A DNA stretch of 41,795 nucleotides from Planctomycetota bacterium (GTDB taxonomy: Bacteria; Planctomycetota; Phycisphaerae; Phycisphaerales; SM1A02), in assembly GCA_016873255.1 (NCBI GenBank), contig VGXR01000019.1:1-41795 (forward strand), written 5' to 3'. The position numbers and the translations under genes were made by a program. The notes beneath the pieces are model-generated. The model was not told the DNA's origin. It did no database searches and worked only from the letters and a program-made list of their open reading frames with translations. Of this stretch, positions 5,778-25,083 are shown one piece after another; the stretch's first letter is position 1; each line of letters starts with the position of its first letter.

Positions 5778-5792
5778 CGAGGGGAGAATGTA
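5778..5792 (-). promoter_or_regulatory. Probable leaderless-type promoter of the WHy lipoprotein gene
   Basis: On the minus strand TACATT (plus-strand 5787-5792) is followed by exactly 9 nt and then the ATG at 5777. This is the same geometry as at 2668, 27412 and 38226. No clear -35 box. Confidence 0.4.
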
Positions 5793-5816
5793 TCACCCGA
5801 AGCCATCGATGCGCCG

Positions 5817-9638: not shown

Positions 9639-9678
9639 TGGCGGGAACCGTTCCCGGCCCCACCTCCGGGGCCGGGGC

Positions 9679-9684
9679 TACACT
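9679..9684 (+). promoter_or_regulatory. Putative -10 box upstream of the acidic protein gene
   Basis: TACACT lies in the 119-bp gap between the PQQ-type gene and the acidic ORF, about 70 nt before the ATG at 9758. The same hexamer is found upstream of rpsO, ndk and the CoA-transferase gene. A GAGG ribosome binding site precedes the ATG. No convincing -35 box. Confidence 0.35.
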
Positions 9685-9757
9685 CCCGCCCGACTTGCTG
9701 CGTTGAGCCTTCGCCTTCACCCCGCGCCGTCCGCGGCACCCCATCACGAGGCAGACC

Positions 9758-10138
9758 ATGAATCCGTCGATCACCCTCCCCGAGCCCGAGCAACCCTGCG
9801 CAGAGGACGAGCTGGTCCTGTTCGGCCGTGGCCCATCCACCGCCGTGCTCGCCGCCGACGAGGACGAGGACGACGACTTTGTCTTCGATGACGACGATGA
9901 GGACGAGGATGACGACGAAGACGAGGATGGGGACGACGAAGAGAATGAGGACGACGAGGAAGAGGACGAGGACGACGGCGAATACGAAGACGACGAGGAA
10001 GAGGACGAGGAAGAGGACGAGGAAGAAGACGAGGACGAAGAAGAAGACGAGGAAGAAGACGAAGAGGACGAGGAAGACGACGACGACGACGACGAAGAGG
10101 ACGACGAAGAAGAAGAGGAAGAGGAAGACGAGGACTGA
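9758..10138 (+). CDS. Hyperacidic Asp/Glu-rich protein of unknown function
   Basis: A 126-residue protein with two parts. Residues 1-33 are an ordinary, mildly acidic segment with one Cys (14) and the string F-G-R-G-P. Residues 34-126 are about 86 Asp/Glu out of 93, broken only by F, V, F, G, N, G and Y. I believe it is translated. It has an ATG with a GAGG site at suitable spacing, a -10-like box upstream, an inverted repeat just after the stop, and mixed GAC/GAG/GAA/GAT codons rather than one expanded trinucleotide. There is no signal peptide, so it is probably cytoplasmic. Function is unknown. Highly acidic tails occur on histone chaperones, DNA-mimic proteins and metal or basic-protein buffers. 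The opposite strand reads as poly-Ser, which I take as a shadow. Confidence 0.7.
   Translation: MNPSITLPEPEQPCAEDELVLFGRGPSTAVLAADEDEDDDFVFDDDDEDEDDDEDEDGDDEENEDDEEEDEDDGEYEDDEEEDEEEDEEEDEDEEEDEEEDEEDEEDDDDDDEEDDEEEEEEEDED
9857..10135 (+). repeat. Purine-rich low-complexity tract (GA-rich, ~280 bp)
   Basis: The tail codons GAC, GAG, GAA and GAT make the plus strand very rich in G and A, with few pyrimidines outside third positions. It is a compositional island in otherwise GC-balanced DNA and may form triplex or unusual structure. Confidence 0.8.
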
Positions 10139-10167
10139 CCTCGCCTTGCCACCCCCGGAGCCCCCTG

Positions 10168-10213: not shown

Positions 10214-11437
10214 TCACTGGGTTATCGAGAGCCGCAGCTCTGCAAACTCCGCGGTCCGGCTGCGGACCCGGAACGCCACGAGGGGCCGGCCGGGCGCCGG
10301 GGGCGGGCATGCAAACCATGATTCGGTCGACAGCGTCTCGTCCGTGCTTGTGGATCCAAGCCGGTGCCGCAGCAGGGCGTCGGCGGTGGTGACCAGCACG
10401 TTCCCCTCGTCCACGCGCAGCGCGGCCATCGAACCGCGTGGAAGCAATTCCGTTTCGGCGCCCGGCGCCCACAGTGCGGCGCGCCCGGCATCCGGCAGCC
10501 AGAGCGACATTCGGTCCGAGCCCGGCGGAGCGGCGTTCAGGCCTCCCACCGGCGACAGCGCGCGCACGGCCCACGAAAGCCCTCCGCGCACCGTGAGCGG
10601 CACGGACGTGCCCGCCGCCCCGCCGCCGTCCTCCGCGGGCAGGCCGTCGTCGCCGAACGGCATCCACGCGAGCGACACCGCGTTGCCGTCAAGGCGCAGC
10701 GCGAAGAGGCCGTTGCCGTCGCCGGCGAAGACCGGGAGCACCCAGCCCGACCCCTCGGGCGCACGGACCACCGCCTGCCGCCCGGCCACGCGGACCACCA
10801 GCTCCCAGTCGCCGCCCTCGGGCTGACGCCGGCTCCATGCGAGCGCACCGTCGGGCCGCACCGTGGCGTGCGCGTTGCACCATTCGTCGTCCGCAATCGC
10901 CTCGAGGCCGCCGCTCCAGCCTGCCATGGCGATCCAGCGGCGCCCGTCCGGACGCGGCCGCTCCACGAGGAAGCCGCGGTCCGTGGCGGCCCGGCCGAGG
11001 AGCCACGGGCCCTCCAACCGCGAGAGCGGCGCCCCGGGCGTCGCACGGTCGAGCGACACGGCCTCGATCTGCGTGTCGAAGCCGGCGGGAGCCAGCGGAT
11101 CACCCACTCGCTCGGGCCATGTCGCGGTGCTGCGCGCCTCCGTGGCGGCCTTGGTGCCATCGGGAGACACCACCGGGAGCGCGCCGCCGCCCCAGGGGAT
11201 GCGCGTGAGCGGCTCGAGCGCCACGGTGACCACCGGGACCTGCCGCCCTCGTTCGTCGTCGACCACGGTCCGCGTGGCATTGGGGCCAGGCTGCGATGCC
11301 AGGGTCAGCCGCTCCGAGCTGGCCAGTCGCTCGCGGGTGCAGCCCGGGTTCGCCGCCAACAGCACCGCGAGGGCGGCCCATCGGGCCGCCCTCGCGGGTT
11401 GAGAACGCTTCTCCTCGGGCAGTTGCCCCATGCTCAC
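10214..11437 (-). CDS. Putative lipoprotein with TolB/WD-like propeller repeats, last gene of the T2SS operon
   Basis: A 407-residue protein. The N-terminus has a charged start, the hydrophobic stretch A-A-L-A-V-L-L-A-A and N-P-G-C at Cys33. This suggests a lipoprotein, although Asn at -3 makes the lipobox weak. The mature part contains repeated strands with P-D-G or G-D-G turns (V-V-S-P-D-G-T-K, V-R-P-D-G-A-L-A-W, F-A-G-D-G-N-G), as in TolB-like or WD propellers. Its GTG start overlaps the gspD stop (GTGA at 11434-11437), so it is probably translated together with the secretin. An ATG two codons later is an alternative. A lipoprotein made with GspD could act as a pilotin or secretin-associated factor, but that rests on position only. 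I do not recognise a named family. Confidence 0.7.
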   Translation of the reverse strand: MSMGQLPEEKRSQPARAARWAALAVLLAANPGCTRERLASSERLTLASQPGPNATRTVVDDERGRQVPVVTVALEPLTRIPWGGGALPVVSPDGTKAATEARSTATWPERVGDPLAPAGFDTQIEAVSLDRATPGAPLSRLEGPWLLGRAATDRGFLVERPRPDGRRWIAMAGWSGGLEAIADDEWCNAHATVRPDGALAWSRRQPEGGDWELVVRVAGRQAVVRAPEGSGWVLPVFAGDGNGLFALRLDGNAVSLAWMPFGDDGLPAEDGGGAAGTSVPLTVRGGLSWAVRALSPVGGLNAAPPGSDRMSLWLPDAGRAALWAPGAETELLPRGSMAALRVDEGNVLVTTADALLRHRLGSTSTDETLSTESWFACPPPAPGRPLVAFRVRSRTAEFAELRLSITQ

Positions 11438-14181
11438 TGCGGCTTCTGCTGCTGCGGGGCCGGAGGTGCGGCGGGAGCCGGAGCCGCGGGCGCCGGCGCC
11501 TGCTTCTGGTCATCGGGGATGTCGATGGGCTGCAGCGGTTCCTTCGGTCCGGCGTCCACCGTCCCGTCCTCGCTCAGGAGGTCATGCTTGCGGATCAGGT
11601 CCTTCGACATCTCGGCGACCGGCTTCGCCAGCTCGCGCAGGCGCTTGCGCTCCTCGGCGTTGAAGTTGCTGTCGTTGGCGTCGGGGTTGTCCACCACCAG
11701 CGGCGTGACGAACACCAGCAGCTCGGTCACGGCCTTGGTCTCGCTGGTGTTGGCGAACACCCAGTCGAGCACAGGGACGTCGCCGAGGAGCGGCACCTTG
11801 TTCTTGATCTTGTTCTCCGTCTCCTTGCGGATGCCCGAGAGCACGATCGTCTGACCGTTCTTCACGGTCGCCGTGGTGTTGGTCTGGCGGCGGTCGATGA
11901 TGGGGTTGCCGCCCACGCCCTCGGGGCTGGTGACGTTCACGTTCGACAGCAGCACCTCGATCTGCATGTTGACGTTGCGGTCCTTGGTGATGCGCGGGCG
12001 CACGTTGAGGCCGATGCCGACCGGGATCTGGTCGAAGTTGGCCTGCACGCCGCCGCCGGTGTTCAGGTTGCTGAGGCTGGAGGCCTGGAAGGGCACGTCC
12101 TGGCCCTGGAAGAACTTCGCCTCCTTGTTGTCGCTGGTGAAGACGCGCGGCTGCTGCAGGATGCGCACCGTGGTCTCCTGGGCGAGGGCCTGCAGCACCA
12201 CGTTGGCGCTCACGTCGAAGGAGAGGGTGCTCGTGCCGAGGTCGGGCGGGAAGATGTCCGTCTTCTCGCCGGTGAAGATCGGGTCACCGGAGATGATGAT
12301 GGCGTTGTTCGGGTTGGTCGGAGCGACGTTGTTTCCCCACTTCACGCCGAGCTGGAAGTCGTCGCCGAGCTGCACCTCGGCAAGCACCACGCTGATCATG
12401 ACCTGCCGCCCGGGGCGGTCGAGGTCCTCGATGATCTTGGCGAGGCTCTGCTGGATCTCCGGCGGCGCCAGGATGAGGAGCGAGTTCTGGCCGGCGTTGG
12501 GAACGACGCGGCTCTTGCCGACGAGCGCGCTCACCTCCGCCTGGTCCTCGCCCGCGCCGCGTGCCGTGGCCCACGGGAACTGGATGCCCTGTCCTGCGCC
12601 CGCGCCGCCCTGCTGCGCGCCGCTGGTGAAGGCGTTGGTGTTCGAGGTCCCGTTATCTCCTCCGCTGGCGACGTTGAAGTCGATGCCGCTGAGGCCCTCC
12701 TCGGGCGCGCGGATGGTGGCGGAAGCGCCGCTCTGCGCCAGCAGGGCGTTGAGGATCTCGGCCAGCTCGATGGCGCTGGCATGCTTGAGCGGGATGTTCG
12801 TGGGAAGCCCGGCATCGAGCGGCCGGTCGATCTCGCCGATCAGCTCGTCGAGCCACTTGAAGTTGTCGGGCGTCTTGCTCACCACGATGAGGCGGTTGGA
12901 GTCCGGGTACGCCTCGATGCGGAAGATGTTGGCGATCGCCACGTCGGCGCCGGACTCGCCGCCGCCGCCCCCGCCGATGCCCTGCACGCGCTGGACGCCG
13001 GTCTGGCCCCGCGCCCCCGCGCCGCCCGTGCGCCGCGCGCCGCCGCCGCCGCCCTCGAGGAGCGACTGCAGGACCGTCTGCACCTTCAGCGGGTCGGTGA
13101 ACTTCAGGTCGTAGAGGCGGAAGATCTCGCCCTTGCCGCCCGAGCTCGGCGCATCGAGCACGGAGATCAGCGCCTCGATCTCCTTCATGATGTTGGGCTC
13201 GGCGCGGATGGTCATGCTGTTCGTGGCCGGGAGGGTGGTCACGATCAGCTGCTCGCTGGTGCCCACCAGCTCGCCCTGCTGCTGCTGGCCCGGCACGCGG
13301 CCGCGGTTCTGGCCGGGCTGCTGCGGCTGGCCGGCGCGCGCGCTGGTGCTGCCGCCCGACGGCGGGCGCGCCGAGAACAGGTCGGTGATGATCGTCGAGA
13401 TGGTCTGCGCGTCCTGGTAGGCCAGCTTGATGGTCTTGGTGCGCACGTCAACGTAGGCGGTCACGTCGAGCAGGTCGATGAGCCGCTGCACGCGCTTGGC
13501 CAGCGCGATGTCGCCCTCGAGGATGATCTGGTTCGAGTTGTTGTCGACCTGGAGCGTGGAGTAGCTCGGCAGCGTGCCGTCGAGGCGGTCGTAGACCTGC
13601 TGCGCCTTGGTGTTCTTGATGCGGAACACCTTGACCACGATGTTGCCGTTCTCGGGAAGGTCGGTGATGTCGACGTCGGGCCCGAGCACCCGGGCCGGCT
13701 GCAGCGTGTTCAGCTCGGTCAGGTTGTCGATCAGGATCATGTCGTCCGTCTCGACGACGCCGAGGCCGTTGAGGCGGAACGCCTGGAAGATCAGGTTCAG
13801 CGCGTCGCTCTTGGGCATCTTGCGGTCGCTGACGATGGTGATCTTCACCGGTGTCAGCGCCGTCTGCTTCGGGATCACCACCTTGCCGGTCCACAGCGAG
13901 ATGGTGTCGATGAGCGTCTTGATCTCCTGGTCTCGGAACTGCAGGCCGACCAGTTCCTCGCCCGAGTCGGGCTTGCGGCCGGAGGCGGGGCCGGGGACGG
14001 TGTCCTGTGCGGCGGCGGGTTCCGGCGCCGGGGGCGGCAGTTCCATCGGCTGGTTCATCCCGCCGTCGCCCTGCGCCGGTGCGGCGGCGGGGTCCTGGAA
14101 GGCGGCGACTGCTGCCGTGCCGACGGGCGCCGCAAGCATCGCGACGAGAAGGGCGATGGAGGAGGGTTGGCAGGTCTTCAC
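11434..14181 (-). CDS. gspD: Type II secretion system outer-membrane secretin GspD
   Basis: A 915-residue secretin, which forms the multimeric outer-membrane channel of the T2SS. An N-terminal signal peptide (about residues 1-26) is followed by an Ala/Pro linker. The periplasmic N-domains come next, with an N0-like I-K-T-L-I-D-T-I-S start and N1-N3 copies of the V-x-x-I-x-x-L-D type. They carry Gly/Gln-rich insertions near residues 270-310 and 380-420. The C-terminal beta-barrel domain shows V-x-I-S-V-V-L-A-E-V and the secretin signature V-P-L-L-G-D-V-P-V-L-D-W-V-F. A Pro/Ala/Gln tail ends the protein. The start is GTG with GGAG seven bases upstream. 183 bp separate it from the previous gene, so it may also have its own promoter. 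Confidence 0.95.
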   Translation of the reverse strand: MKTCQPSSIALLVAMLAAPVGTAAVAAFQDPAAAPAQGDGGMNQPMELPPPAPEPAAAQDTVPGPASGRKPDSGEELVGLQFRDQEIKTLIDTISLWTGKVVIPKQTALTPVKITIVSDRKMPKSDALNLIFQAFRLNGLGVVETDDMILIDNLTELNTLQPARVLGPDVDITDLPENGNIVVKVFRIKNTKAQQVYDRLDGTLPSYSTLQVDNNSNQIILEGDIALAKRVQRLIDLLDVTAYVDVRTKTIKLAYQDAQTISTIITDLFSARPPSGGSTSARAGQPQQPGQNRGRVPGQQQQGELVGTSEQLIVTTLPATNSMTIRAEPNIMKEIEALISVLDAPSSGGKGEIFRLYDLKFTDPLKVQTVLQSLLEGGGGGARRTGGAGARGQTGVQRVQGIGGGGGGESGADVAIANIFRIEAYPDSNRLIVVSKTPDNFKWLDELIGEIDRPLDAGLPTNIPLKHASAIELAEILNALLAQSGASATIRAPEEGLSGIDFNVASGGDNGTSNTNAFTSGAQQGGAGAGQGIQFPWATARGAGEDQAEVSALVGKSRVVPNAGQNSLLILAPPEIQQSLAKIIEDLDRPGRQVMISVVLAEVQLGDDFQLGVKWGNNVAPTNPNNAIIISGDPIFTGEKTDIFPPDLGTSTLSFDVSANVVLQALAQETTVRILQQPRVFTSDNKEAKFFQGQDVPFQASSLSNLNTGGGVQANFDQIPVGIGLNVRPRITKDRNVNMQIEVLLSNVNVTSPEGVGGNPIIDRRQTNTTATVKNGQTIVLSGIRKETENKIKNKVPLLGDVPVLDWVFANTSETKAVTELLVFVTPLVVDNPDANDSNFNAEERKRLRELAKPVAEMSKDLIRKHDLLSEDGTVDAGPKEPLQPIDIPDDQKQAPAPAAPAPAAPPAPQQQKPQ

Positions 14182-14364: not shown

Positions 14365-15216
14365 TCAGCGGTTCAGGGCCTCCAGGTGCTTCACCAGCCA
14401 CTCCTCCTCGGTCTGGAGGCGCTGCATGGTGGCCGCGTCGAGGTCCGCCCGCTCACGGGCGGCGCTGACGGCCGCCAGCGCGGTCCGCGCGGCGCCGGCG
14501 TCCATCCGTCCGACGGCATCCTGGCTCACCGGGCTGGGCGCGGGGGCGCCGGTGCCGGCGGGCACGGCCGGGGAGGCGGTCAGGGTCGGCGTGCCGCCGC
14601 CTGCGGGCGTGGCCGGGGCTGGCGTGCCGCTGCCGGCGCCGGGGGCGGGTGCCACGGTCACGCCCGAGGGGGGCGTGGCTGTGGTGATCGGCCGGAAGAT
14701 CGTGTCCACGGGCTTCTGGCCCAGCGCGACGTCGTAGTCCTTGCCCTTGTGACGGATCTTGAGCGCCCACGGCGACACGATCTCCGTGACGGTGGCGCCC
14801 TCGAGTTCCTTGCCCACTTCGGTGGATCGCCCGCCCTCGAAGTAGATGACGGAGCCGAGCATGCCGATCGGCTTGGGCCCCGTGTACTCCGTCGGCGGCG
14901 GCGGCGGAGGCGGAGGCGGCGGTGGCGGCGGCGGCGGTGGCGGCGGCGGGACCTTCCGCTTCCAGTCCGGCGGCGCGAAGAAGAGCGATCGGCCCTCGAA
15001 GCGGCGCACGTAGAGCCCGTGCGTCTCGTCGTGCTGCGCGAGGAGCGGAGTGGTGACGTCCACGGCCTCCACGTTGCCCGATGGCCGGAACAGGTCGATG
15101 AGGAGCGGCACGCCATGCGAGACGATGACCACGGCACCCGCGCCGACGGCGATGACCGCCGCCACCAGCGTGCCCGACCAGCGTGCGCCCAAGGGCAGCC
15201 CGAACGGGAGGTTCAT
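14365..15216 (-). CDS. T2SS GspC/PilP-like inner-membrane protein with polyproline linker
   Basis: A 283-residue bitopic protein. One membrane segment (about residues 14-34) is followed by a periplasmic part, a run of 19 prolines (90-108) and a small beta domain. That domain has the PilP/GspC homology-region pattern: G-S-V-I-Y-F at the start, then V-T-E-I-V, then I-R-H-K-G-K-D-Y-D-V. In other T2SS/T4P machines this domain links the inner-membrane platform to the secretin. After a Pro/Ala/Thr/Gly linker, the last ~45 residues form a charged helical module also found at the end of the GspL-like protein. The frame is open further upstream, but the ATG at 15216 overlaps the previous stop (ATGA), which fixes the start. 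Assignment as GspC-like rests on fold pattern and operon position. Confidence 0.75.
   Translation of the reverse strand: MNLPFGLPLGARWSGTLVAAVIAVGAGAVVIVSHGVPLLIDLFRPSGNVEAVDVTTPLLAQHDETHGLYVRRFEGRSLFFAPPDWKRKVPPPPPPPPPPPPPPPPPPPTEYTGPKPIGMLGSVIYFEGGRSTEVGKELEGATVTEIVSPWALKIRHKGKDYDVALGQKPVDTIFRPITTATPPSGVTVAPAPGAGSGTPAPATPAGGGTPTLTASPAVPAGTGAPAPSPVSQDAVGRMDAGAARTALAAVSAARERADLDAATMQRLQTEEEWLVKHLEALNR
14893..14949 (-). repeat. Polyproline-encoding triplet run (19 codons)
   Basis: Nineteen consecutive Pro codons, mostly CCG with some CCT and CCA, inside the GspC/PilP-like gene. Ribosomes need EF-P to pass such a run efficiently, so translation of this gene should depend strongly on EF-P. Confidence 0.9.
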
Positions 15217-15920
15217 CGGCCCCCCCTTCCGCCCGCGGACTGCACCCAGGCCTCGATGGTGGCCTGCACGGTGATCTTCCGCGTCTGCTCGTTCTTGTCG
15301 ATCCGCAGCGAGGTGATGCCGTCGATGACCGGGTTCGACTCGAGGTCGGCGATGACCTTCGGCAGGTCCTCGGCCTTGGCCTCGAACTTCACCTCGGCCT
15401 GGAGGCGATCGACGGCGCCGCCGAGGATGCCCGCATCGGCATCCTTCACGCGCTGCCCGGTGCGGGCCTCGTAGCTGTACCCGCCCACCTTGTGCTTCCG
15501 CAGGACATCGTCGATGGCGCGCGCCAGCTCCTCGCGGCCGTTCGCCGCCGGGCCCGGGGGCGCCACCGGGCCGAAGGTCGCCACCGAGCGCCGCAGGTCC
15601 GTGGTCACCGTGGACTCGCGGCGCGCGCCGCGGTCGAGCGCCAGCTCGATGCGCTCGCTCTCGGCGGCCCACGCGCGCGCGGGTGCCCAGAGGAGCTCGT
15701 CGGCCACCAGCCAGCCGAGCACCGCGAGCGTGCCCGCCACCAGCCAGCGCTGGCGCGTGGGCAGGGCGTCGAACCTGCCGCGCAGGTCCGCGGCCTGCTC
15801 GCGCAGGCCCTTGCGCGCGACCTTGCGCGGGGCCTGTGCGGCGGACCCGGCGGCATCGGCGCCGGAGGCGGCGGCCGCATCGCCGGAGGCGACGCTCAGA
15901 TGTGTCGTTGCGTCGTTCAT
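15213..15920 (-). CDS. T2SS GspM/PilO-like inner-membrane protein
   Basis: A 235-residue bitopic protein. A cytoplasmic Ala-rich N-terminus with a basic patch precedes one membrane segment with W-L-V-A-G-T-L-A-V-L-G-W near residues 58-76. Then comes a coiled-coil-like helix and a ferredoxin-like periplasmic domain (about residues 120-230). The layout matches GspM/PilO, which dimerise with GspL/PilN in the inner-membrane platform. Sequence conservation in this family is low, so the call relies on topology, size and its place between gspL- and gspC-like genes. The ATG at 15920 overlaps the preceding stop (ATGA). A GTG at 15932 would add four residues. Confidence 0.7.
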   Translation of the reverse strand: MNDATTHLSVASGDAAAASGADAAGSAAQAPRKVARKGLREQAADLRGRFDALPTRQRWLVAGTLAVLGWLVADELLWAPARAWAAESERIELALDRGARRESTVTTDLRRSVATFGPVAPPGPAANGREELARAIDDVLRKHKVGGYSYEARTGQRVKDADAGILGGAVDRLQAEVKFEAKAEDLPKVIADLESNPVIDGITSLRIDKNEQTRKITVQATIEAWVQSAGGRGGR

Positions 15921-18028
15921 TCCTTCCGGCACCTCTCGAGCAGCAGGTCGAACTCGTTCTTGAGCCTCACCTTGGTGGCGTCGTCGATGTCCGCGCGGTT
16001 GCGCGCGCGCGACACGGTGACCAGCGCCTGGCGCGCCTCCTCGCGGCTCATCTTGTTGATCTCGTTCTCGGTGATCGGCGCCGGGAGCGGCTCGGGCTCG
16101 TTGGTCGCGCCGGGGTTGCTGCGCGTGGCCAGGCCGCTGCGCGAGGAACCCGAGCCGCGCGCGGCGCGCGCCGATGCCTTCGCGTCTCCGGCGGCTTCGC
16201 CCTCCGACGGCTTGGCGGCTTCGCCTGTCGCCGCGGCGGCGTTGTCGGTGGCGGACTTCGCGGCGGGTGTCGCGGAATTCGCGGCATCGGCCTTGGCGGC
16301 GGAGACGACGCTCGCGGCGCCCATCTGCAGGCCGCTGTCGGCGCCGGTGCGCTGGGGCGCGAGCGCGCCGGTCGGCGCCGGCGCGTCGGATGCGCCGGTG
16401 CCCGAGGCCGTGGTCGTGGCCGTGGTCGTGGTCGTGGTACCGCTCTCGCGCACGGGCGGCGTGGCCGGGCGGTCGGTTGCTGGCTTGGCGGACGCGTCGG
16501 GCGTCGCGAGGCCGCTTGCGGCGTGGTCGACGTCATCCGGCGGAGGGCCGTACCGGCGCTCGCGCATCGAGGTCTTCGCGAAGTCCTGCGCCTCGGGGAA
16601 GGACGCCATCATCGTCGGCCGCACCGCCGTCGCGTTCAGCGAGAAGGCCTGGTAGCCGCGGCTGTCGGGCGCTTCGGAGCTGCGCTGGATGGACTCGAAC
16701 GCGCCGCACTCGCGCATCTGGCGCTCGAAGTCGAGCATCACCTCGGTCGGCTGCTGCGACCCTGCGGAGCGCGCCTTGCCGCGCACGGTCACCGCCTGGC
16801 CCTTCGCCGACTGCGACACGTTGATGAACTCGATCTCGATGCCGTCCGGCGCCGTGCACGCGAGGTCGGAGAGCGTCTTCGTCATCGATGCTCCCTGCCT
16901 CGAGAGGACGCGGTACATCGCCTGCCGGCGCCGATCCTCGTCCTCGGCCTTGATGTAGGCGGCGAGGTCAGGCATCTTCCATCGGAGCACCAGGAGCCGC
17001 AAGCCCTCGATGGCAAGCGGCCCGAGCAGGACCGCCGCAAGCCCGGCCACCAGGAGCCTTCGCGCGGTGCGCGGCTCGCTCATCCGGTTGATGAACGCGC
17101 CCGCACGGTCGGGCTTGGCGCCGATGTCGCGCGACTGGAGCCGCGTCAGCGCGGCGAGCGGCCCGAGCGCGGCCAGCGCAAGGCCGATGTCGATCCCGTG
17201 CTCGTGCCACCATGCCGCGCTGCGATCGCCGCCCTCGCGCAGCGTCTCGAGCCGCGGAAGGTCGTCGGCGCAGAACCCGAGCCCGCCGCCGAGGACGGCC
17301 GCCGCGGCCTCCGACGTGCGTGCGATCGCCGCGGGGATCTCGGCGGACGGGACGCCTGCATGCACGCACGCCTCGCCGACCGCCTGCGCGATCGCGGATG
17401 CCGGCACCGCGCCTGCGACGGCGCCGGCCCGGGTCGCGCGCACGAGGAGGCCCCGCGAGGTCGGGACGCACACCCCGATCACGCCTTCCCCGGCATCGAC
17501 GAAGACGAGCGGGTGGTCGGTGGCCGCCGCCAGCGCGGCGATGCCTGCGGTGGCAGCCGCGAAGGTGACTCCCGTGCCCTCGGCCACGCCGGGCGGCAGG
17601 GCGCCGGTGCCGGCCTCCTCGGGCCATTCGGCCACGAGGCCCGTCCGAACGGCCTCGCCGCGTTCCCGCGGCAGCAAGGCGCTCGCGACGCGCCACGACG
17701 GCGTGCGCCCGAGCACGAACGTGCTGGCATTCAGCTGGAGCGCGCCCTCGAGCCTGCGCTCGTCGGCGGAGGGAAGCTGCACCGCGCGCACGATCACGTC
17801 GGCGCTCGGGAGCACCACCACCGTCCGCGCCGCGCGATGCGAGTCGATCCACGGGCCGATCGGGGCGCCGGAGGCACCGCAGGCGGTGGACGCGAGGACC
17901 TCCACCGAGCCGCTGCGCACCCGGAACGCCGACACGGCGAATCCGCCCGCCGACGGGCGCGCGATGGCCACCACGCCGGGGTCTGCGGCGGTTGCTTCGC
18001 TGGCCTGCTTGCGGCGGGACTGCTTCAT
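15917..18028 (-). CDS. T2SS GspL-like protein (PilM/PilN-type architecture) with long C-terminal extension
   Basis: A 703-residue protein. Residues ~15-260 look like the cytoplasmic actin-fold domain of GspL/PilM (V-F-V-D-A-G-E-G-V-I-G core strands). A membrane segment spans about 323-348, and a PilN-like periplasmic ferredoxin-fold domain occupies about 350-500. In the T2SS this protein ties the GspE ATPase to the platform. It is much longer than usual GspL (about 400 residues). Residues ~520-645 are low-complexity Thr/Ala/Ser/Pro. The last ~50 residues form a charged helical module, shared with the end of the GspC/PilP-like protein two genes downstream. The gap to the gspK stop is 6 bp. Confidence 0.75.
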   Translation of the reverse strand: MKQSRRKQASEATAADPGVVAIARPSAGGFAVSAFRVRSGSVEVLASTACGASGAPIGPWIDSHRAARTVVVLPSADVIVRAVQLPSADERRLEGALQLNASTFVLGRTPSWRVASALLPRERGEAVRTGLVAEWPEEAGTGALPPGVAEGTGVTFAAATAGIAALAAATDHPLVFVDAGEGVIGVCVPTSRGLLVRATRAGAVAGAVPASAIAQAVGEACVHAGVPSAEIPAAIARTSEAAAAVLGGGLGFCADDLPRLETLREGGDRSAAWWHEHGIDIGLALAALGPLAALTRLQSRDIGAKPDRAGAFINRMSEPRTARRLLVAGLAAVLLGPLAIEGLRLLVLRWKMPDLAAYIKAEDEDRRRQAMYRVLSRQGASMTKTLSDLACTAPDGIEIEFINVSQSAKGQAVTVRGKARSAGSQQPTEVMLDFERQMRECGAFESIQRSSEAPDSRGYQAFSLNATAVRPTMMASFPEAQDFAKTSMRERRYGPPPDDVDHAASGLATPDASAKPATDRPATPPVRESGTTTTTTATTTASGTGASDAPAPTGALAPQRTGADSGLQMGAASVVSAAKADAANSATPAAKSATDNAAAATGEAAKPSEGEAAGDAKASARAARGSGSSRSGLATRSNPGATNEPEPLPAPITENEINKMSREEARQALVTVSRARNRADIDDATKVRLKNEFDLLLERCRKE

Positions 18029-18034
18029 GGGCGC

Positions 18035-19552
18035 TTACTGCTCTCGGTAGGTCGTGATGCGGACGGGGAACTCGGACTTGTCGAGCACCGCCTCCACCTC
18101 CACCTCGGTGCCGGTGCTGGCGGCGCGTCCGCGGCTGGTCACGGTATACACGCTGCTCGTCACGTCGAATTGCGTGGCAACCTGGCTGAGCACCTGGGGG
18201 TTCATGCCCGACATCGATGCGAGGTCGGCGAGGCTCGCGATGCCCTCGGGCCGCGACTTGCGGCGCGCGATGATGGCATCGGCCATCCGCGGGTCCATGT
18301 CGAGCACTTCCTTCAGGACCGCCTCGGGCACCGTGTTGATGTTCATCCGGCCCGGGACCGGCTTGGTGAAGTCATCGACGGTCAGTTCGCGGACCACCGC
18401 CCGGACCTGCTCGGGAGTGAGGTCGGGCACTCCAGATCCGCCGGTCGCGCCCGCGGCTCGCCCTGCGCTCGACCGTCCGCTGGTGGCCGACTGGCCGGAC
18501 CCGGTCGACGACTTGCCCCCGGATCCGCCCGCGACCGATGCGCTCCCGCCGGACCCACCGCGCGTCGAACCCGTGGACGCGCCGCTCGAACCGCTCCCGG
18601 TCCTGCCGCCGCCCATCGATCCGCCGCCGGTGCCGTCGGCCCATCCCGTCCGGCCGCTCGCCGCGCCGCCGCCGGCGGCGAGCTGGCTGAGCGGCGTCGA
18701 AAGGAACGCCTCGGGCCGCGCGTTCGCCTGGTTCCCGTACGTGACGATCGCCTGCGCCTGCTCGGCCGAGACGCCGAGGCGCTTGGTGAGGCTCTCCGCG
18801 TCCGCACCCTTGAGGGGCAGCTTGGTCTCGCCTGACGAGGACGTCTGGCTCTGCTTCGAGCGCGCGGTCAGGAACGACGACCAGCCGGCGTCGAGCTTCC
18901 CGTCGGGCTTGTCCTTCGGGAAGGAGCGGGTGGAGTCGTCCTCGTTGGGGTCGAGCCGGCTGTTGAGGTTCCAGTCCTCGCCGCGGACATTCTCCGGCCA
19001 GGCACCCGCCACCAGCTCAAGCTCCGCGATGCTTCGGAACGAGCCGTTGCGCGGCCGGTAGCCCAGCGAGCGGTTGGAGTAGTAGTCGCGCTCGGCACCG
19101 AGCCCCTCCACCTCGTCGTTGTCGTCGCGCCAGTCGACGATGGCATCGACGACGTCGGGCGTCATGCCGGGAAGGTTGAGCAGCTGCACGCGCGTGGCGG
19201 TGTTGATGTTGAGCTTGGCGCCCTCGTCGAGCGGGCCTGCCCACTCGATGCCGTCCAGGAAGTGGCGGATGTCCCACGAGCCGGTGGCAACCTCGCCGAC
19301 GGCGTGCTCCTCCATGTCGCGCACCACGGCCATCGGATCGTCCGGGTCCGCGTTCTGCAGGTGGAACTCCATGATCGCGACCATCTGCTCGACGCCCGCG
19401 CGCGCGGCCCAGCGCGCCTGCACGCGGGCGAGCGTCTCGCGACCGATCACCGCCTGCCGGAACGTCACGACCTGCGTCGCCGCCACCAGCACCGCGGCGA
19501 TGGCCACGCTCCAGACCACCACGACCACCACGCTCGCGCGGCGCGTCCTCAT
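18035..19552 (-). CDS. gspK: T2SS minor pseudopilin GspK
   Basis: A 505-residue protein with a short basic leader and a hydrophobic N-terminal helix (A-S-V-V-V-V-V-V-W). It lacks the usual Glu at mature position 5, as is normal for GspK. The globular part contains the family's paired helix-hairpin-helix-type motifs: L-N-I-N-T-A-T near residue 113, and M-N-I-N-T-V-P near residue 400. Between them lies a low-complexity Gly/Ser/Ala/Arg insert (roughly residues 290-375) that is absent from ordinary GspK (about 320 residues). It explains the extra length. GspK caps the pseudopilus tip with GspI and GspJ. The ATG overlaps the gspJ stop (ATGA). Confidence 0.88.
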   Translation of the reverse strand: MRTRRASVVVVVVWSVAIAAVLVAATQVVTFRQAVIGRETLARVQARWAARAGVEQMVAIMEFHLQNADPDDPMAVVRDMEEHAVGEVATGSWDIRHFLDGIEWAGPLDEGAKLNINTATRVQLLNLPGMTPDVVDAIVDWRDDNDEVEGLGAERDYYSNRSLGYRPRNGSFRSIAELELVAGAWPENVRGEDWNLNSRLDPNEDDSTRSFPKDKPDGKLDAGWSSFLTARSKQSQTSSSGETKLPLKGADAESLTKRLGVSAEQAQAIVTYGNQANARPEAFLSTPLSQLAAGGGAASGRTGWADGTGGGSMGGGRTGSGSSGASTGSTRGGSGGSASVAGGSGGKSSTGSGQSATSGRSSAGRAAGATGGSGVPDLTPEQVRAVVRELTVDDFTKPVPGRMNINTVPEAVLKEVLDMDPRMADAIIARRKSRPEGIASLADLASMSGMNPQVLSQVATQFDVTSSVYTVTSRGRAASTGTEVEVEAVLDKSEFPVRITTYREQ

Positions 19553-20529
19553 CGGGCGCCTCCGCGGCCACCGCCATTGCCGCCGCGGCCGCCATTGCTG
19601 CCGCGGCCCCCGCCGAACCCGCGCCCACCGGCGTTCGGCGGAGCGTTGCCGCGACTGCCGCCGGCGCCGCCGCCTCGGCCGGGCGCTCCGCCTTGGCCGG
19701 GCGCTCCGCCTTGGCCGGGCGCGCCGCCGTTGACGACCGCGTCTGCGGGAATCGCCGGCGCTGCAAGCCCGCCTGTGCCGACGGGTGCGGCTCCCGCCGT
19801 CGCCGCCTCATCCGCAGGCATGCTGCCCGGGTCCTGTCCCTCTCCCTCGGCCGGCTCCTCCGGCTTCGGCGGAGGCACTCGGTCGATGGCCACCACCGTC
19901 CGCAGCGTGACCTCGGGGGTGAGCGCGGTGGGCTCGGTGCCGATCTCGGCGCCGGTGGCCGTCACGGAGATGCGAACCAGCTTGGGAACGCCGTCGATGT
20001 CCGAATCCCACTCGTCGCGCCAGCCGCCCTCGCCGTCGCTGGCCTCGACAAGCAGCCCCACCACGCCGTCCGCCACCGGCGACGCGAGGCCGCCGCCATC
20101 GGGCACCTCGTCGGGGACGTTGTCTCGTCGGTGCCAGAGCGCCGAGCCGAGCTCGTCGTCCTCGATGCGGAAGTGCGCCTCGTACTCCTGGCCCTCGCCT
20201 TGGTACTCGATGGGCCGTATGGCCCGCAGCGACGTGCAGAAGAGGAGGAGGTCGCTCCGGTCGTAGCCGTCGTCGGCATCGGCCGTCAGCAGGAACCGCG
20301 TCTCGAAGAGGTCGTCCGTGCGCAGCGTCGCGGCCACGTCGCGGCGGACCGCTTCCAGGCCGGTGGCGGCGCGCTGGAACGCCTCGGCGCGGTCGCGCGC
20401 GATGTTCCGTGCCCGTCCGAGCTGCGAGAGCGAGAACGTCACCGCACCGAGCACCATCGCTGCGATGGTGCCGGCCACGATCAGCTCCACCAGCGTGAAG
20501 CCGCGGCGACGGTCACTGCGCTTCGTCAT
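19549..20529 (-). CDS. gspJ: T2SS minor pseudopilin GspJ with Gly-rich tail
   Basis: A 326-residue pseudopilin with a canonical prepilin leader, R-R-G-F-T-L-V-E-L, cleaved after Gly10 and with Glu at mature +5. The helix and GspJ-like globular domain (about residues 40-215, with R-D-V-A-A-T-L and L-F-C-T-S-L) are followed by an Ala/Pro linker. The ~60-residue tail is almost entirely Gly, Ala, Pro, Asn and Arg. Such a tail is unusual for GspJ and would project from the pseudopilus tip. The gene overlaps gspI by 17 bp and gspK by 4 bp. Confidence 0.85.
   Translation of the reverse strand: MTKRSDRRRGFTLVELIVAGTIAAMVLGAVTFSLSQLGRARNIARDRAEAFQRAATGLEAVRRDVAATLRTDDLFETRFLLTADADDGYDRSDLLLFCTSLRAIRPIEYQGEGQEYEAHFRIEDDELGSALWHRRDNVPDEVPDGGGLASPVADGVVGLLVEASDGEGGWRDEWDSDIDGVPKLVRISVTATGAEIGTEPTALTPEVTLRTVVAIDRVPPPKPEEPAEGEGQDPGSMPADEAATAGAAPVGTGGLAAPAIPADAVVNGGAPGQGGAPGQGGAPGRGGGAGGSRGNAPPNAGGRGFGGGRGSNGGRGGNGGGRGGAR
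19677..19730 (-). repeat. Three 18-bp tandem repeats in the gspJ tail
   Basis: Units at 19677, 19695 and 19713 encode G-G-A-P-G-Q repeats. The first two are identical and the third differs at two bases. The unit is a multiple of three, so copy-number change would keep the frame. Confidence 0.8.
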
Positions 20530-20962
20530 AGCGTGCCTGCCGGTCGATCGGCGTCTCGGGGGTGCGTGCGGGTTCGGGCGGGCCGTCCTCGGGCTTGGGC
20601 GCCATCAGCGTCTCGACGCGGTATTCGCCGCCGACCTCGTCGCGCGCGATGGCCAGGACGCGGTAGGGGTCGCCCAGTCCCTGCTTGTCGATGTCCAGCT
20701 CCCATGTCCACGACTGGAATGGCGCGTCGAACGTGCCGTCCGCGGCCCGCGTCAGCTGCCAGTCGGCGACGCCGGTCGCCAGCACCTCCGACAGCAGCCC
20801 GTCGAGGAGCTGCGCCGCCACCAGCTCGCGCTCGGCGCGCTGCTGCATGGCGAGCGACCGCTCGGCGATCGAGATCACCGCCGCCAGCCCGATGCCGAGG
20901 ATCACGCCGCCGACGATGACGTCGACGAGCGCCCAGCCGCGCCTCGTGCCGCGCCTCACCAT
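20513..20962 (-). CDS. gspI: T2SS minor pseudopilin GspI-like
   Basis: A 149-residue protein starting with the prepilin-like leader R-G-W-A-L-V-D-V-I-V-G. If cleaved after Gly9, mature residue 1 is Trp rather than Phe or Met, and position +5 is Asp rather than Glu. The hydrophobic helix and the small globular domain (W-E-L-D-I-D near residue 85) fit GspI in size and operon position between gspH and gspJ. Residues after ~125 are Pro/Glu-rich. The frame stays open upstream, but the ATG at 20962 gives the leader the correct length and overlaps the gspH stop by 7 bp. Confidence 0.8.
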   Translation of the reverse strand: MVRRGTRRGWALVDVIVGGVILGIGLAAVISIAERSLAMQQRAERELVAAQLLDGLLSEVLATGVADWQLTRAADGTFDAPFQSWTWELDIDKQGLGDPYRVLAIARDEVGGEYRVETLMAPKPEDGPPEPARTPETPIDRQARYDEAQ

Positions 20963-21543
20963 GGTTCGCGCGACCTTCCTGCCTGGTCGAGGTCGATCTC
21001 GGCGCGCGCGAACGGCTCGGGCTTGTCGGCGTCCACGCGCACCACGCTCGGCGACCCCGGCGGGAGCACCACCGTCGCATCGACTCCGTGGCCGGCCAGG
21101 CGGATCTCGACCTTCGGCCGCTCGCCGCCCGGGACGCTGGCGATGGTCCATTCCGAGGGATCCACGCGCTGGTCGTCCTTGCGGATCTCGAGGAGCTCGA
21201 GCCCCTCCGGAAGCGCCACCGGTGCTGCGAAGCGGTCGGCCCTCCACTCGGGAGCCGAGGTGGGATCCGCCGGATCGACGTCCTTCACGATCAGGTGGAT
21301 GCGGCCGTCGGCGCCGTCGCGCCAGAGCGCCACCTGCTGCGACCCCAGCGCCTGCCGGTACGCGAACAGTCGCATCAGCTCCGCCACCCGGTCGACCGCG
21401 TTGCTCGACTCCTGCCGCAGCGTGCCCGTGAACTTGGGCACCACCGCCACGGCGGTGATCGCAAGGATCACCACCACGACGATCAGCTCGATGAGCGTGA
21501 ACGCCCGGGCGCGTGAAGGGTGCTGGGTTCGTGCTCGGGACAT
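20956..21543 (-). CDS. gspH: T2SS minor pseudopilin GspH-like
   Basis: A 195-residue pseudopilin. The leader R-A-R-A-F-T-L-I-E-L has Ala14 instead of Gly at -1 of the peptidase site and the usual Glu at +5. The rest is a hydrophobic helix and a beta-rich globular domain (W-R-D-G-A-D-G-R-I-H-L-I near residue 75) compatible with GspH. GspH sits in the minor pseudopilin tip complex. The gene lies 27 bp after gspG and overlaps gspI. Confidence 0.8.
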   Translation of the reverse strand: MSRARTQHPSRARAFTLIELIVVVVILAITAVAVVPKFTGTLRQESSNAVDRVAELMRLFAYRQALGSQQVALWRDGADGRIHLIVKDVDPADPTSAPEWRADRFAAPVALPEGLELLEIRKDDQRVDPSEWTIASVPGGERPKVEIRLAGHGVDATVVLPPGSPSVVRVDADKPEPFARAEIDLDQAGRSREPW

Positions 21544-21570
21544 GCGCGGATGCCCCGCGCGCCGGGAGGG

Positions 21571-21999
21571 TCAGGTGGGGCGCTTGTCCCCGGCCACGAT
21601 GTCGGCGTTGTCGCCCTCACCGCCGGCCTGCCCATCGGCGCCGAAGCTGTAGATGTCGAAGTCGAGGTTCACCTCGCCCGGGACGCGGATCTGGTACGGG
21701 TTTCCCCAGGGGTCGCTGAGCTGGTTCCTGTTGAGCAGCGCACCCTCGCCCTCGGAGAGCTCCACCAGCTCGAAGTCCGACGGCAGCACGCTCAGGCCCT
21801 TGGCAGTCATGTACATGCGGACCTGGTTGGAGATGGTCTCGGCGTCGGCGCGGGCCGACTTGCTCTTCGTGAAGCCGACCCACTGGGTGACGCGCGGCAC
21901 CACCAGCGCGGCCAGGATCGCCATGATGGTGACGGCGACGATGAGCTCGATGAGCGAGAAGGCGCGGCGGTCGATTCGGTGGCGGCGGGGGCTTCGCAT
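21571..21999 (-). CDS. gspG: T2SS major pseudopilin GspG
   Basis: A 142-residue major pseudopilin, the building block of the periplasmic pseudopilus piston. The leader R-R-A-F-S-L-I-E-L has Ala13 at -1 and Glu at mature +5. The C-terminal domain carries the GspG hallmarks D-P-W-G-N-P-Y and the calcium-site loop F-G-A-D-G-Q-A-G-G-E-G, followed by D-N-A-D-I. The open frame extends well upstream of the ATG at 21999, but only this start gives a short leader. The 119-bp gap to gspF is the largest within the E-to-J block. Confidence 0.94.
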   Translation of the reverse strand: MRSPRRHRIDRRAFSLIELIVAVTIMAILAALVVPRVTQWVGFTKSKSARADAETISNQVRMYMTAKGLSVLPSDFELVELSEGEGALLNRNQLSDPWGNPYQIRVPGEVNLDFDIYSFGADGQAGGEGDNADIVAGDKRPT

Positions 22000-22118
22000 G
22001 GGACGCGAGTCTCTTGGGCTGAACGGGGCGGTTGGATGCGTATTCGTAGACCGAACGCACCAGTCCGTGCGATCTGACATCGGCATTTGCAGGTCGCGGC
22101 CAGAGTGGCCAATAACCA

Positions 22119-23420
22119 TTAGCCGCCGAGCGACTTCTGCATCTCGAGAAGGGGCAGCAGGATCCCGGCGAGCACGAACGCGGCGATGAGCGCCATGATC
22201 ACCAGCAGCACGGGCGGCAGCAGCTTGGTCAAGATCTTGAGCGACGTGTTCACCTGCCGGTCGAAGGCGCCCGCGGCGTGGATCAGCATCTCCTCGAGGC
22301 GCCCGGATTTCTCGCCGATGTTCACGATCTGGACCAGGAGCGGCGGGAAGAACCCGCACTTCTCGAGCGGCTCCGCGAGCGACTGGCCCGTGGTCACCTT
22401 CTCCTGCACGCCGTCGACGGCCTCCATGAGCACGGTGTTGCCGAGCGTGTCGCGCACGATCCGCAGCGCGCTGAGGATGGGGAGGCCCGCCGACACCAGC
22501 GTGCCGAGCGTGCGCGTGAAGCGCGCCACGGCCACGTCGCGGAGGAGCGTTCCCAGGATCGGCGTGCGCAGCAGCACCAGGTCCACGATGCGTCGGTTGG
22601 CCGGCACCGACACCCAGCGACGGAAGCCGACGTACGCCGCGAGCGCGCCGATGACCACCAGCCACCACCACGCCGCCATGAAGCCCGCGAATCCGAGCAG
22701 CACCGCGGTGGGGAAGGGGATGGTCACGCCCGGCTGCCCGATGATGGGGGCCATCAGCCTCGGCAGCAGGAACGTCACGGCCACGATGATGCTGATGCCG
22801 ATGAGCCCGGCCACGATCAGCGGGTAGATGGTGGCGCCGATCATCTCGCGGCGCAGCTCGACCGAGCGGTCGAGCAGGTCGGCGAGCTGGTGCATCACCT
22901 CCGCGGTGCGGCCCGAGGCGTCCGCGGCGCGCACCATGCCGACGATCATCTCGTCGAACGGCTGCCCGTACTCCTCCATGGCCTCGTGGAGCGGGCGGCC
23001 CGCCTCCACGCGCTCGATCAGGAAGTCGAGGATCACCGGCTGCCCCTTGCCCGAGGCGGAGCGGCGCACGGTCTTGAGCGAGTTGAGGAGGGGCAGGCCG
23101 GCCTCGATCGCGGTCGCGAGCTCGCGCACGATGTTGGCAAGCTCGGTGCGCTTGAGGGACGGGCGGCCCGCGCGGCGTCCGAGGAGCGAGCTGCCGAGGG
23201 ACGCAAGGCCGGGCGCGGCCCCGCCCGCGGCATCCGCCTGCTGCCCGGGCCGGCGCTGGGCCGGCTGCGGTGCCGCTTCCCCCGCGTCGGCCTCGAGCGA
23301 GAGCGGCGCGAGGCCCTTCGACTGCAGCTGGCGCATCGCCGCGGCTCGGTCGCCGGCCACGATCACGCCGCCCGCGATGGCCCCGCCTCGGTCGATGCTC
23401 TGGTGGCGGTAGCTCGGCAT
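22119..23420 (-). CDS. gspF: T2SS inner-membrane platform protein GspF
   Basis: A 433-residue polytopic protein with two GspF domains, at about residues 95-220 and 300-425. Each has the pattern F-x-R-x-L-x-x-x-x-x-A-G-L-P-[IL]-L (F-T-R-T-L-G-T-L-V-S-A-G-L-P in the second). Long membrane segments lie near 205-230, 250-280 and 395-425. GspF is the platform core that contacts the GspE ATPase. An Ala/Gly/Pro/Gln-rich linker near residues 45-75 separates the N-terminal region. It lies 14 bp after gspE with no visible Shine-Dalgarno. Confidence 0.94.
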   Translation of the reverse strand: MPSYRHQSIDRGGAIAGGVIVAGDRAAAMRQLQSKGLAPLSLEADAGEAAPQPAQRRPGQQADAAGGAAPGLASLGSSLLGRRAGRPSLKRTELANIVRELATAIEAGLPLLNSLKTVRRSASGKGQPVILDFLIERVEAGRPLHEAMEEYGQPFDEMIVGMVRAADASGRTAEVMHQLADLLDRSVELRREMIGATIYPLIVAGLIGISIIVAVTFLLPRLMAPIIGQPGVTIPFPTAVLLGFAGFMAAWWWLVVIGALAAYVGFRRWVSVPANRRIVDLVLLRTPILGTLLRDVAVARFTRTLGTLVSAGLPILSALRIVRDTLGNTVLMEAVDGVQEKVTTGQSLAEPLEKCGFFPPLLVQIVNIGEKSGRLEEMLIHAAGAFDRQVNTSLKILTKLLPPVLLVIMALIAAFVLAGILLPLLEMQKSLGG

Positions 23421-23434
23421 GGGGCGTCCGCGGC

Positions 23435-25072
23435 TCAGGCGTCGTCGATGTCCTGCGTGGCGCGCAGGACCTCGTCGATGGTGGTCATGCCGGCGGCGGC
23501 CTTCAGCATGCCGTCGTCGCGCATGCTCTGGAAGTCCTGGTCCACCAGCGTACGGAGGTCAAGGGCGGGCCGGTTCTTGCTGATCCCCTCGCGCAGGCGC
23601 GCGTTGATGCGTGCCAGCTCGTAGAAGCCCATGCGCCCGCGGAAGCCCGAGCCGTTGCACTTGTCGCAGCCCTTGCCCTTGGGGACGCCGTCGCGGAAGA
23701 GCGCGCGCTCCTCGGGGGTGATGCGCGAGGCCGTCTCCTCGGTCATCGGCACGCGCGTCACGCACTCGCGGCAGAGGCGGCGGCCCAGGCGCTGCGCGAG
23801 CAGGCCCTCGAGGACGCTCGCGATGAGGAACGGCTCGGCGCCCATGTCCACGAGGCGGCCGACCGACGAGATCGAGTCGTTGGTGTGCAGGGTGCTGAAG
23901 AGCAGGTGGCCCGTGAGCGCGGAGCGGATCGCGATGTCCACGGTCTCGTTGTCGCGCACCTCGCCGACGAAGATGACGTCGGGGTCCTGGCGGAGGATGG
24001 CGCGCAGGCCGGTGGCGAACGTGAGGCCGCGCTTCGGGTTCACGGGGATCTGGTTGATGCCGCTGAGCTCGTACTCGACCGGGTCCTCGATGGTGATGAT
24101 CTTCTTGCGCGGGTCGTACAGCTTGTTGAGGCACGCGTAGAGCGTGGTGGTCTTGCCGCTTCCCGTGGGGCCCGTGACCAGCACCATGCCGTGCGGCTTC
24201 TGGATGAGGCGGTCCATCATCCCGCGCATCCCCTCGCGCATGCCCAGGCTCACCAGGTCGAGCGGCAGCGAGCTCTTGTCGAGGATTCGCATCACGATGC
24301 TCTCGCCGTAGACGGTCGGCACCGTGCTGACGCGGATGTCGACCTTGCGCCCCTCGAACCGCAGCGTGATGTGCCCGTCCTGCGGCACGTAGCGCTCGGC
24401 GATGTTCATGTGCGCCATGATCTTCACGCGGCCGATCAGGGCGGGCTGCAGGTGCTTGGGCGGCGGCGGCTGCTCCACCAGCACGCCGTCGATGCGGTAC
24501 TTGACCTTGAGCTCGGTCTCGAACGGCTCGATGTGGATGTCAGACGTGCGGTTCTGGATGGCCTCGAGGATGATGAGGTTCACCAGGTTGATGAGCGTCG
24601 GCTGCTCGGCCATCCGGTGGACGTCGTCCGCCTCGATGGCGTCCAGGTTGTGCTCGATCTCGCTGCCGGCGAGCTCGCTGTCCTCCGCCAGGCTCTCGGC
24701 CATGCGCGCGGCGGTGGTGCCGTACGCGGCGCGCATCAGCTCGCTGAAGAGCGCCGGCTCCATGCCGACGCGCGCCACGGGCATGCGCGCCAGCGCGGAG
24801 GTCTCGTCGACCGCGGCGATGTCGAGCGGATCGACCATCGCCACCACCAGCCGGCCGGACTCCACGCGCAGCGGCACCACGCGCAGGCGCACCGCGACGT
24901 CGGGCGCGATGCGCGCCGACACGGCGGCGTCGAGCACGGGGATCGCCTCGGCCCACTCGATGCCGAACATCCGGCAGCGGTCACGGAGCGGCGCATCCCC
25001 CGCCAGCGCGGCGAATGCGCCTGCGTCGAAGGTCGATGCAGGGACAGGCGTTCCGTGGAGGTCGTGGTCCAT
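23435..25072 (-). CDS. gspE: T2SS ATPase GspE
   Basis: A 545-residue hexameric ATPase that powers pseudopilus assembly. An N-terminal N1E/N2E region (about 1-150) precedes the ATPase domain. That domain has Walker A G-P-T-G-S-G-K-T (about 301-308), an Asp box (I-T-I-E-D-P-V-E), Walker B V-I-F-V-G-E-V-R-D (about 366-374) and a His box (T-L-H-T-N-D). A zinc-binding tetracysteine domain follows (C-R-E-C near 434, C-D-K-C near 469). I chose the ATG at 25072, with GGAAG just upstream. A GTG at 25087 overlapping the previous stop (GTGA) would add five residues. Either way the gene is tightly coupled to the upstream LTPEQ-type gene. Confidence 0.95.
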   Translation of the reverse strand: MDHDLHGTPVPASTFDAGAFAALAGDAPLRDRCRMFGIEWAEAIPVLDAAVSARIAPDVAVRLRVVPLRVESGRLVVAMVDPLDIAAVDETSALARMPVARVGMEPALFSELMRAAYGTTAARMAESLAEDSELAGSEIEHNLDAIEADDVHRMAEQPTLINLVNLIILEAIQNRTSDIHIEPFETELKVKYRIDGVLVEQPPPPKHLQPALIGRVKIMAHMNIAERYVPQDGHITLRFEGRKVDIRVSTVPTVYGESIVMRILDKSSLPLDLVSLGMREGMRGMMDRLIQKPHGMVLVTGPTGSGKTTTLYACLNKLYDPRKKIITIEDPVEYELSGINQIPVNPKRGLTFATGLRAILRQDPDVIFVGEVRDNETVDIAIRSALTGHLLFSTLHTNDSISSVGRLVDMGAEPFLIASVLEGLLAQRLGRRLCRECVTRVPMTEETASRITPEERALFRDGVPKGKGCDKCNGSGFRGRMGFYELARINARLREGISKNRPALDLRTLVDQDFQSMRDDGMLKAAAGMTTIDEVLRATQDIDDA

Positions 25073-25083
25073 TCCGCTTCCGA

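Follow-up and report, generated by a model that had tools for sequence, protein, structure and literature searches.

The stretch of DNA analysed here (the window: 41,795 nucleotides, contig VGXR01000019.1 of assembly GCA_016873255.1, from a planctomycete of the order Phycisphaerales) carries a type II secretion system (T2SS) operon on its minus strand, in which the products of a GspL-like gene and of a GspC/PilP-like gene end in the same kind of helical module (Table 1). These two C-terminal copies, hereafter the L tail and the C tail, follow long low-complexity linkers and lie outside the cores of the two proteins, in regions for which Pfam and NCBIfam gave nothing above cut-off. An earlier note on this DNA had pointed out the resemblance, and its account of the shared module was borne out with respect to the places on the minus strand, the ungapped alignment, the residue pattern, the linkers and the position outside both cores; the module was located correctly, and only the ends given for it fell slightly short of those in Table 1.

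Table 1. Features of the T2SS operon in the window (pLDDT, predicted local distance difference test)
Feature	Position	Strand	Details
C-terminal helical module, GspL-like protein	15920..16087	-	residues 648-703; predicted helices 654-659, 662-676, 683-702
Ala/Thr/Ser/Gly-rich linker, GspL-like protein	16088..16513	-	residues 506-647; pLDDT < 50 across 506-643
GspL core	16610..18028	-	residues 1-473: PilM/PulL-like domain, hydrophobic helix, strand-helix region
GspL hydrophobic helix near residues 319-351	16976-17074	-	AlphaFold2 model and sequence
GspL-like gene	15917..18028	-	703 residues
C-terminal helical module, GspC/PilP-like protein	14368..14538	-	residues 227-283; predicted helices 232-236, 240-254, 261-282
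Pro/Ala/Thr/Gly-rich linker, GspC-like protein	14539..14697	-	residues 174-226; pLDDT < 50 at 174-184 and 186-222
HR-like beta domain, GspC-like protein	14722..14880	-	residues 113-165
GspC/PilP-like gene	14365..15216	-	283 residues; predicted hydrophobic helix at 15-42
Gene between gspL and gspC, module-free	15213..15932	-	GspM/PilO-like by position and size only
Secretin GspD, module-free	11434..14181	-	NCBIfam type_II_gspD above cut-off; Pfam Secretin, Secretin_N, GspD N0
Upstream T2SS genes (GspK, pseudopilin-motif genes, GspG, GspF, GspE), module-free	18035..25087	-	Pfam/NCBIfam

The operon is recognised by the Pfam families T2SSE, T2SSF, T2SSG, T2SSK and Secretin, all above cut-off, and by NCBIfam gspD above and GspK below cut-off, and genes with N-methylation motifs adjoin the Pfam-recognised ones. 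No Pfam family reached cut-off for the GspL-like gene, the GspC/PilP-like gene or the gene between them, and the GspL-like protein stayed below cut-off for Pfam T2SSL itself (E 0.16; 11.8 bits vs 25.5). Its assignment to GspL is based instead on fold and operon context: its N-terminal fold was matched by Foldseek to PilM 5eoy (E 3.6e-6), PulL 5tkw (1.0e-4) and GspL 4pht (4.5e-4), and the predicted membrane helix is followed by a strand-helix pattern over residues 397-468 (pLDDT 84-92 in ten-residue blocks), which is read as a putative ferredoxin-like periplasmic domain. For the 283-residue protein, the top Foldseek row was GspC 3oss (probability 0.91 but E 0.3), and its HR-like domain (model residues 110-166) could be aligned to 3oss with Z 7.2, a root-mean-square deviation of 1.9 and 21% identity over 56 residues, behind a predicted, hydrophobic N-terminal transmembrane helix. 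On these predicted structures the two proteins are called GspL and GspC. The whole GspC-like protein gave no Pfam match (matches weaker than E 0.1 are mostly removed by the HMMER filters), so that no PDZ domain was recognised behind the HR-like domain, and the region after this domain consists of a predicted disordered linker and the module.

Aligned without gaps, the two tails are identical at 19 of 47 positions overall and at 19 of 40 when counted from the M, exactly the figure that had been estimated by eye. Their BLOSUM62 local score is 83, as against a mean of 22.5 (standard deviation 4.4, maximum 48) for shuffled sequences, none of 5000 of which scored as high. A search of the genome with the 47-residue L tail returned its own place, the C tail (E 4.2e-5) and nothing further, and the C tail as query returned an extra third place at chance level (E 0.55). 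With 34 L tails combined into a profile, L (1.3e-24) and C (3.2e-10) were again the sole places in the window genome at E 10 or better. A second profile, of 39 L tails taken from other genera, still recovered the C tail at E 2.5e-8 (scaled to 10,000 sequences), and comparison of the L-tail with the C-tail profile gave a probability of 99.3 and E 1.3e-20 over 63 columns. To control for likeness among Ala/Arg-rich helices in general, a further profile was built solely from L tails of genomes in which GspC is tail-less. This profile scored all 34 real C tails at 22.8-71.7 bits (median 39.3; the window's C tail 38.8), while 34 reversed C tails did not exceed 5.0 bits (the window's 3.0) and 170 shuffled ones did not exceed 8.6 bits. 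In addition, 23 same-genome L-C pairs, across 24 genomes, lay above the maximum of 4800 shuffles. Taken together, the similarity of the two tails is homology, and they are two copies of one module of about 56 residues; the chance resemblance of Ala/Arg-rich helices that the earlier note had left as a way for its proposal to fail was ruled out by the shuffles, the reversed tails and the genome-wide search.

A separate AlphaFold2 model was computed for each protein, on alignments of 37 and 34 natural sequences. In both models the predicted disordered linker leads into a short helix followed by a helical hairpin at the C-terminal end, with ten-residue mean pLDDT values of 88-96 for the C module and 90-94 for the L module, whose last three residues have 75. 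The starts of all three helices differ between L and C by a constant 422 residues, and the helix spacing is therefore the same in both modules. In the linker of the window GspL, an Arg at position 636, shortly before the module, is nearly invariant in the otherwise low-complexity linker of relatives.

The module appears to belong to no curated family of Pfam or NCBIfam (PHROGs and PADLOC were not searched). None of the 34 L tails reached a curated Pfam cut-off, and among the best 25 of 28 families the top match had E 0.0021, from one member; NblA was matched by 3 members, the first at 14.8 bits vs a cut-off of 25. A profile search of the PDB with the module returned the designed protein 9zem (E 3e-9, with the best stretch covering profile positions 4-19 only), NblA (0.0029) and weaker others. 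Several ribosomal structures resemble the arrangement of the module (Z between 5.5 and 7.3, alignments mostly of 52-57 residues, 2-11% identity); the chains concerned we take to be the helical hairpin of ribosomal protein uL29. A Z of about 7 is a level flagged as common for helical models, so that no family conclusion can be drawn, and Ribosomal_L29 is absent among the best 25 of 28 Pfam families for the L tails. The arrangement of helices is similar in the uL29 hairpin and the module, but the identity is low and the likeness is one of fold alone.

Relatives of the GspL core were found in 54 of 81 genomes, the window's own included. Among 52 GspL loci fetched from relatives, 50 had a readable C-terminal end, and all 50 align with the motif, the weakest being that of G035 (profile E 3.8e-4). 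In the two others, G041 and G044, the GspL sequence is cut off by the end of the contig or by a run of N, and a separate stretch (L116, L117) holds the module; as a GspM-like gene and a GspC core come next in it, this is most likely the missing end of GspL. In a second set of named genomes, which overlaps partly with the first, the tail is present on GspL at 62 of 62 loci. More broadly, the module occurs in 107 of 111 genomes of the family (completeness at least 90%). Among 13 relatives in the window's genus, both tails were found in 11; in G012 the contig does not reach GspC, and no match came from G011, which is 64% complete.

A sample across the phylum gave matches at E 0.01 or better in 27 of 244 genomes, 16 of them in the same order (E 2.7e-6 or better). 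Among the genomes listed, the same-order matches were distributed over the families as 9 of 9 in the window's family (f1), 5 of 10 in f2, 2 of 2 in f4, 0 of 3 in f5 and 0 of 7 in f6; the f2 carriers listed are GspL in our reading, by their membrane helix and the motif that follows it. The matches in the 11 genomes outside the order (E 0.001-0.01) look like chance: in our reading, the sequences listed for them include coiled coils of seryl-tRNA synthetase, frames that may not be genes and chance matches of a similar kind. Convincing matches are confined to one order, Phycisphaerales, and do not extend to all of its families. A search for the core of GspL, made in 27 genomes from the order's other families, yielded one partial match.

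The C tail is less widespread. In the 56 genomes with GspL and a complete GspC (G024, whose GspC is cut, is left out of this set), 30 have the C tail and 26 have none. At the 62 named loci, GspC was not found in 5 and is cut in 4; the remaining 53 complete genes comprise 33 with the tail and 20 without it. Accordingly, 33 of these loci contain two module stretches, on GspL and GspC, and 29 contain one, and no module was found in other T2SS genes on either strand of the window and the 62 loci. With regard to sister loci lacking a tail, which the earlier note had considered damaging to its proposal, the outcome was mixed: every GspL end that could be read has the tail, and roughly two fifths of complete GspC genes are without it.

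To follow the C tail, a tree of the GspL core was built for the 56 genomes with the C-terminal 130 residues left out. The C tail required 2 changes on this tree vs a mean of 18.8 after shuffling, and a single clade for it was not rejected by the approximately unbiased test (p 0.363). Moreover, in the seven entries from families f3 and f4, the L tail is present in all and the C tail in none. The tree changes and the f3/f4 pattern suggest that the L tail is the older one and that the C tail arose by a single gain, with or without a loss. Same-genome L and C tails were no closer than those paired across genomes (80.7 vs 78.2, permutation p 0.16, 24 genomes), which argues that the C copy is old, has been kept and has evolved separately for a long time; the same comparison gave no signal of concerted evolution or gene conversion between the two tails of a genome. 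Together, these sequence comparisons show the C tail to be an old presence on GspC, with only one or two changes needed on the tree. Because part of the family keeps the tail on GspL without one on GspC, pairing between GspL and GspC cannot be the sole or original role of the module.

The earlier note had considered the module on two T2SS parts only, which proved too narrow. In the window genome it occurs on GspL and GspC alone; however, 15 genomes of the family, most of them with extra matches, were searched again, and the loci fetched from 13 of these (several weaker matches were left out) revealed 21 further carrier proteins with 27 modules, so that confinement to the T2SS is ruled out. The Pfam families above cut-off in these carriers are DUF1579, AhpC-TSA, Beta-lactamase, Pkinase (a protein kinase plus TPR), vWF_A and WD40. 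A hydrophobic segment over threshold precedes the module in 13 of the 21 carriers, and 6 more have an apparent signal peptide, as judged by eye, giving 19 that look exported or membrane-anchored; of the remaining two, L156 has none visible and the gene of L162 starts beyond the contig. The module mostly stands at or near the C-terminal end (not so in L160, L174 and L176), and 6 of the 21 carriers have two modules, L156 and L169 among them.

Some of these carriers form recognisable groups. The DUF1579-like L152, L153, L170 and L171, from two genera, each have two tandem modules near the C-terminal end (Pfam was run on L153 only), and these eight modules form one old lineage of their own. In genus g35, the kinase-like L173, L175 and L178 have a membrane segment and a long C-terminal part with the module at its end (Pfam kinase and TPR shown for L173 only), and L177, L249 and L250 are small lipoprotein-like proteins with seemingly little beyond the module. 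A likeness of six carriers to Secretin_N was weak and was not built on: this family stayed below cut-off in L161 (E 0.0015), L154 (E 0.037) and L159 (E 0.04) and was unlisted for L158, L172 and L176, and a profile comparison of five of these carriers with GspD N0-N1 gave a probability of 1.7.

The source of the extra modules was traced by aligning each of them with the GspL tails of 43 genera and ranking these tails by score. The GspL tail of the own genus ranked first for 17 of the 27 modules (12 from g35 and 5 from four other genera), with a mean rank of 6.0 vs 22 expected; when stand-ins were used for genera, the count was 18 of 27, with 59 tails compared. A direct case was found in G020, where the gspL 3' end is repeated with 93.5% identity over 263 bp (L154:3768-4030 vs L099:3076-3338). 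The copy reaches from the linker past the stop codon by at least 26 bp, and ends a gene for another protein with a signal-like N-terminal end. The repeat is a recent duplication of the gspL 3' end fused to another gene. In G087, a WD40 gene (L162) is 87% identical to the gspL of a sister species over 147 bp, and its module scores 103 with its own GspL vs 215 with that of the sister species; since the own GspL is the poorer match, this copy may reflect transfer between species or a mixed bin. These cases and rankings show that the module has been copied repeatedly onto other proteins, apparently from the resident gspL 3' end in several genera.

Elsewhere in the window, between the frames at 5628-9638 and 10214-11437, a reading frame of 126 residues (9758-10138, plus strand) encodes a very long Asp/Glu run, and a poly-Ser stretch lies in the opposite-strand frame 8929-10152.

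On balance, the best reading overall, which we hold with moderate confidence, is that the module is a portable docking module on the inner-membrane proteins of the T2SS; it is presumably periplasmic and would serve as a protein-protein docking element. GspL tails, present in several copies in the inner-membrane platform, would make platform contacts, either tail to tail or through a common platform partner, and the long flexible linker would let a tail reach across the platform. GspC, by gaining the same tail where other GspC proteins have PDZ or coiled-coil domains, would join this contact, and further exported proteins would be drawn to this site once they had acquired the tail. A bolder version, tentative and in our view rather doubtful, is that the gspL 3' end serves Phycisphaerales as a reusable recruitment tag: a copy of it would dock an exported protein on the inner-membrane platform of the T2SS, by contact of the tail with another tail or with a partner, GspC would have taken the tag long ago in replacement of a PDZ-type adaptor, and gene fusion would rewire partners.

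Several observations weigh against the docking proposal. The docking role itself is something we infer, and the many genomes with the module on GspL alone mean that contact between GspL and GspC is not its basic role. A single C-tail change was recovered in only 4% of 200 bootstrap trees, and 15 of the 31 sampled genomes of the order have no module match. With respect to copying, 12 of the 27 modules come from the one genus g35 and are not independent, this genus has four GspL tails in the ranking and hence a slight advantage, and their own GspL is not the nearest match of the eight DUF1579 modules. The membrane and signal counts in the carriers are raw ones, without a background rate, and among the carriers are kinases and a vWF_A protein that have a membrane segment, at odds with a simple secretion signal.

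It is possible, though we think it unlikely, that the module binds an envelope component outside the T2SS, such as peptidoglycan or another part of the wall or outer membrane. The carriers are diverse and have little in common beyond an apparent export or membrane segment, the two modules in some of them would fit avidity, and excerpts of a study of OutB report a C-terminal extension that can be cross-linked to peptidoglycan and matters for secretion (PMC9239104); on the other hand, no wall-binding family is among the Pfam matches listed, and an extra reason would be needed for the resident gspL being so often the closest relative of the copies. We give less credence to the view that the GspL tail is a tail-to-tail oligomerisation element only, whose copies would self-assemble their own carriers without any recruitment to the T2SS. 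Such a role would suit the many genomes with one module match, on GspL wherever the locus was read, and the occurrence of tandem modules, and PulL is part of a hexameric hub in Klebsiella, according to excerpts of PMC6882859, but it does not by itself explain why GspC, which is also part of the T2SS platform, has an old copy that was retained.

That the spread is a side effect of gspL 3'-end duplication, which would supply a stop codon and a ready-made soluble tail, and has little function is very improbable: the G020 copy is indeed of this form, carrying the stop codon and further sequence, but older copies, those on the DUF1579 proteins and on GspC, keep the motif over large divergence, and nearly all carriers look exported or membrane-anchored. 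That the whole resemblance is a chance product of two Ala/Arg-rich amphipathic helices, which both tails are in composition, is scarcely credible against the shuffles, the background scores of the reversed and shuffled controls, the lack of a third genome place for the L tail or its profile, and the profile-profile comparison.

No description of such a module, and none of a planctomycete T2SS, was found in the open-licence full-text papers searched, which is not proof of absence. How the T2SS chooses and positions its partners is an open question, and the variable C-terminal end of GspC is among the few known handles on it. A module common to GspL and GspC, unrecognised by Pfam and NCBIfam and naturally fused to other proteins, amounts to a natural experiment on a lineage-restricted domain added to the T2SS machine, the more so as carriers and non-carriers can be compared inside one bacterial family.

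Among known systems, the nearest parallels concern the C-terminal end of GspC and of GspB. According to excerpts of PMC12369372, the C-terminal end of GspC is variable, with a PDZ domain in many T2SSs, a coiled coil in XcpP and the domain missing in LspC, and the PDZ domain affects which substrates are secreted; excerpts of PMC3815138 describe homo- and heterodimers of the periplasmic domains of GspL and GspM in Dickeya. The proteobacterial PDZ domain and the XcpP coiled coil, as covered in these excerpts, are like the module in being optional and variable C-terminal domains of GspC, whereas the window module is a predicted helical hairpin, homologous to the GspL tail and to domains of unrelated proteins. 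The C-terminal extension of GspB/OutB, in the portion of PMC9239104 considered, is likewise an add-on of a periplasmic HR-domain T2SS protein and important for secretion; it is, however, a 28-residue polyampholyte contacting peptidoglycan, while the module is a predicted fold carried by both GspL and GspC.

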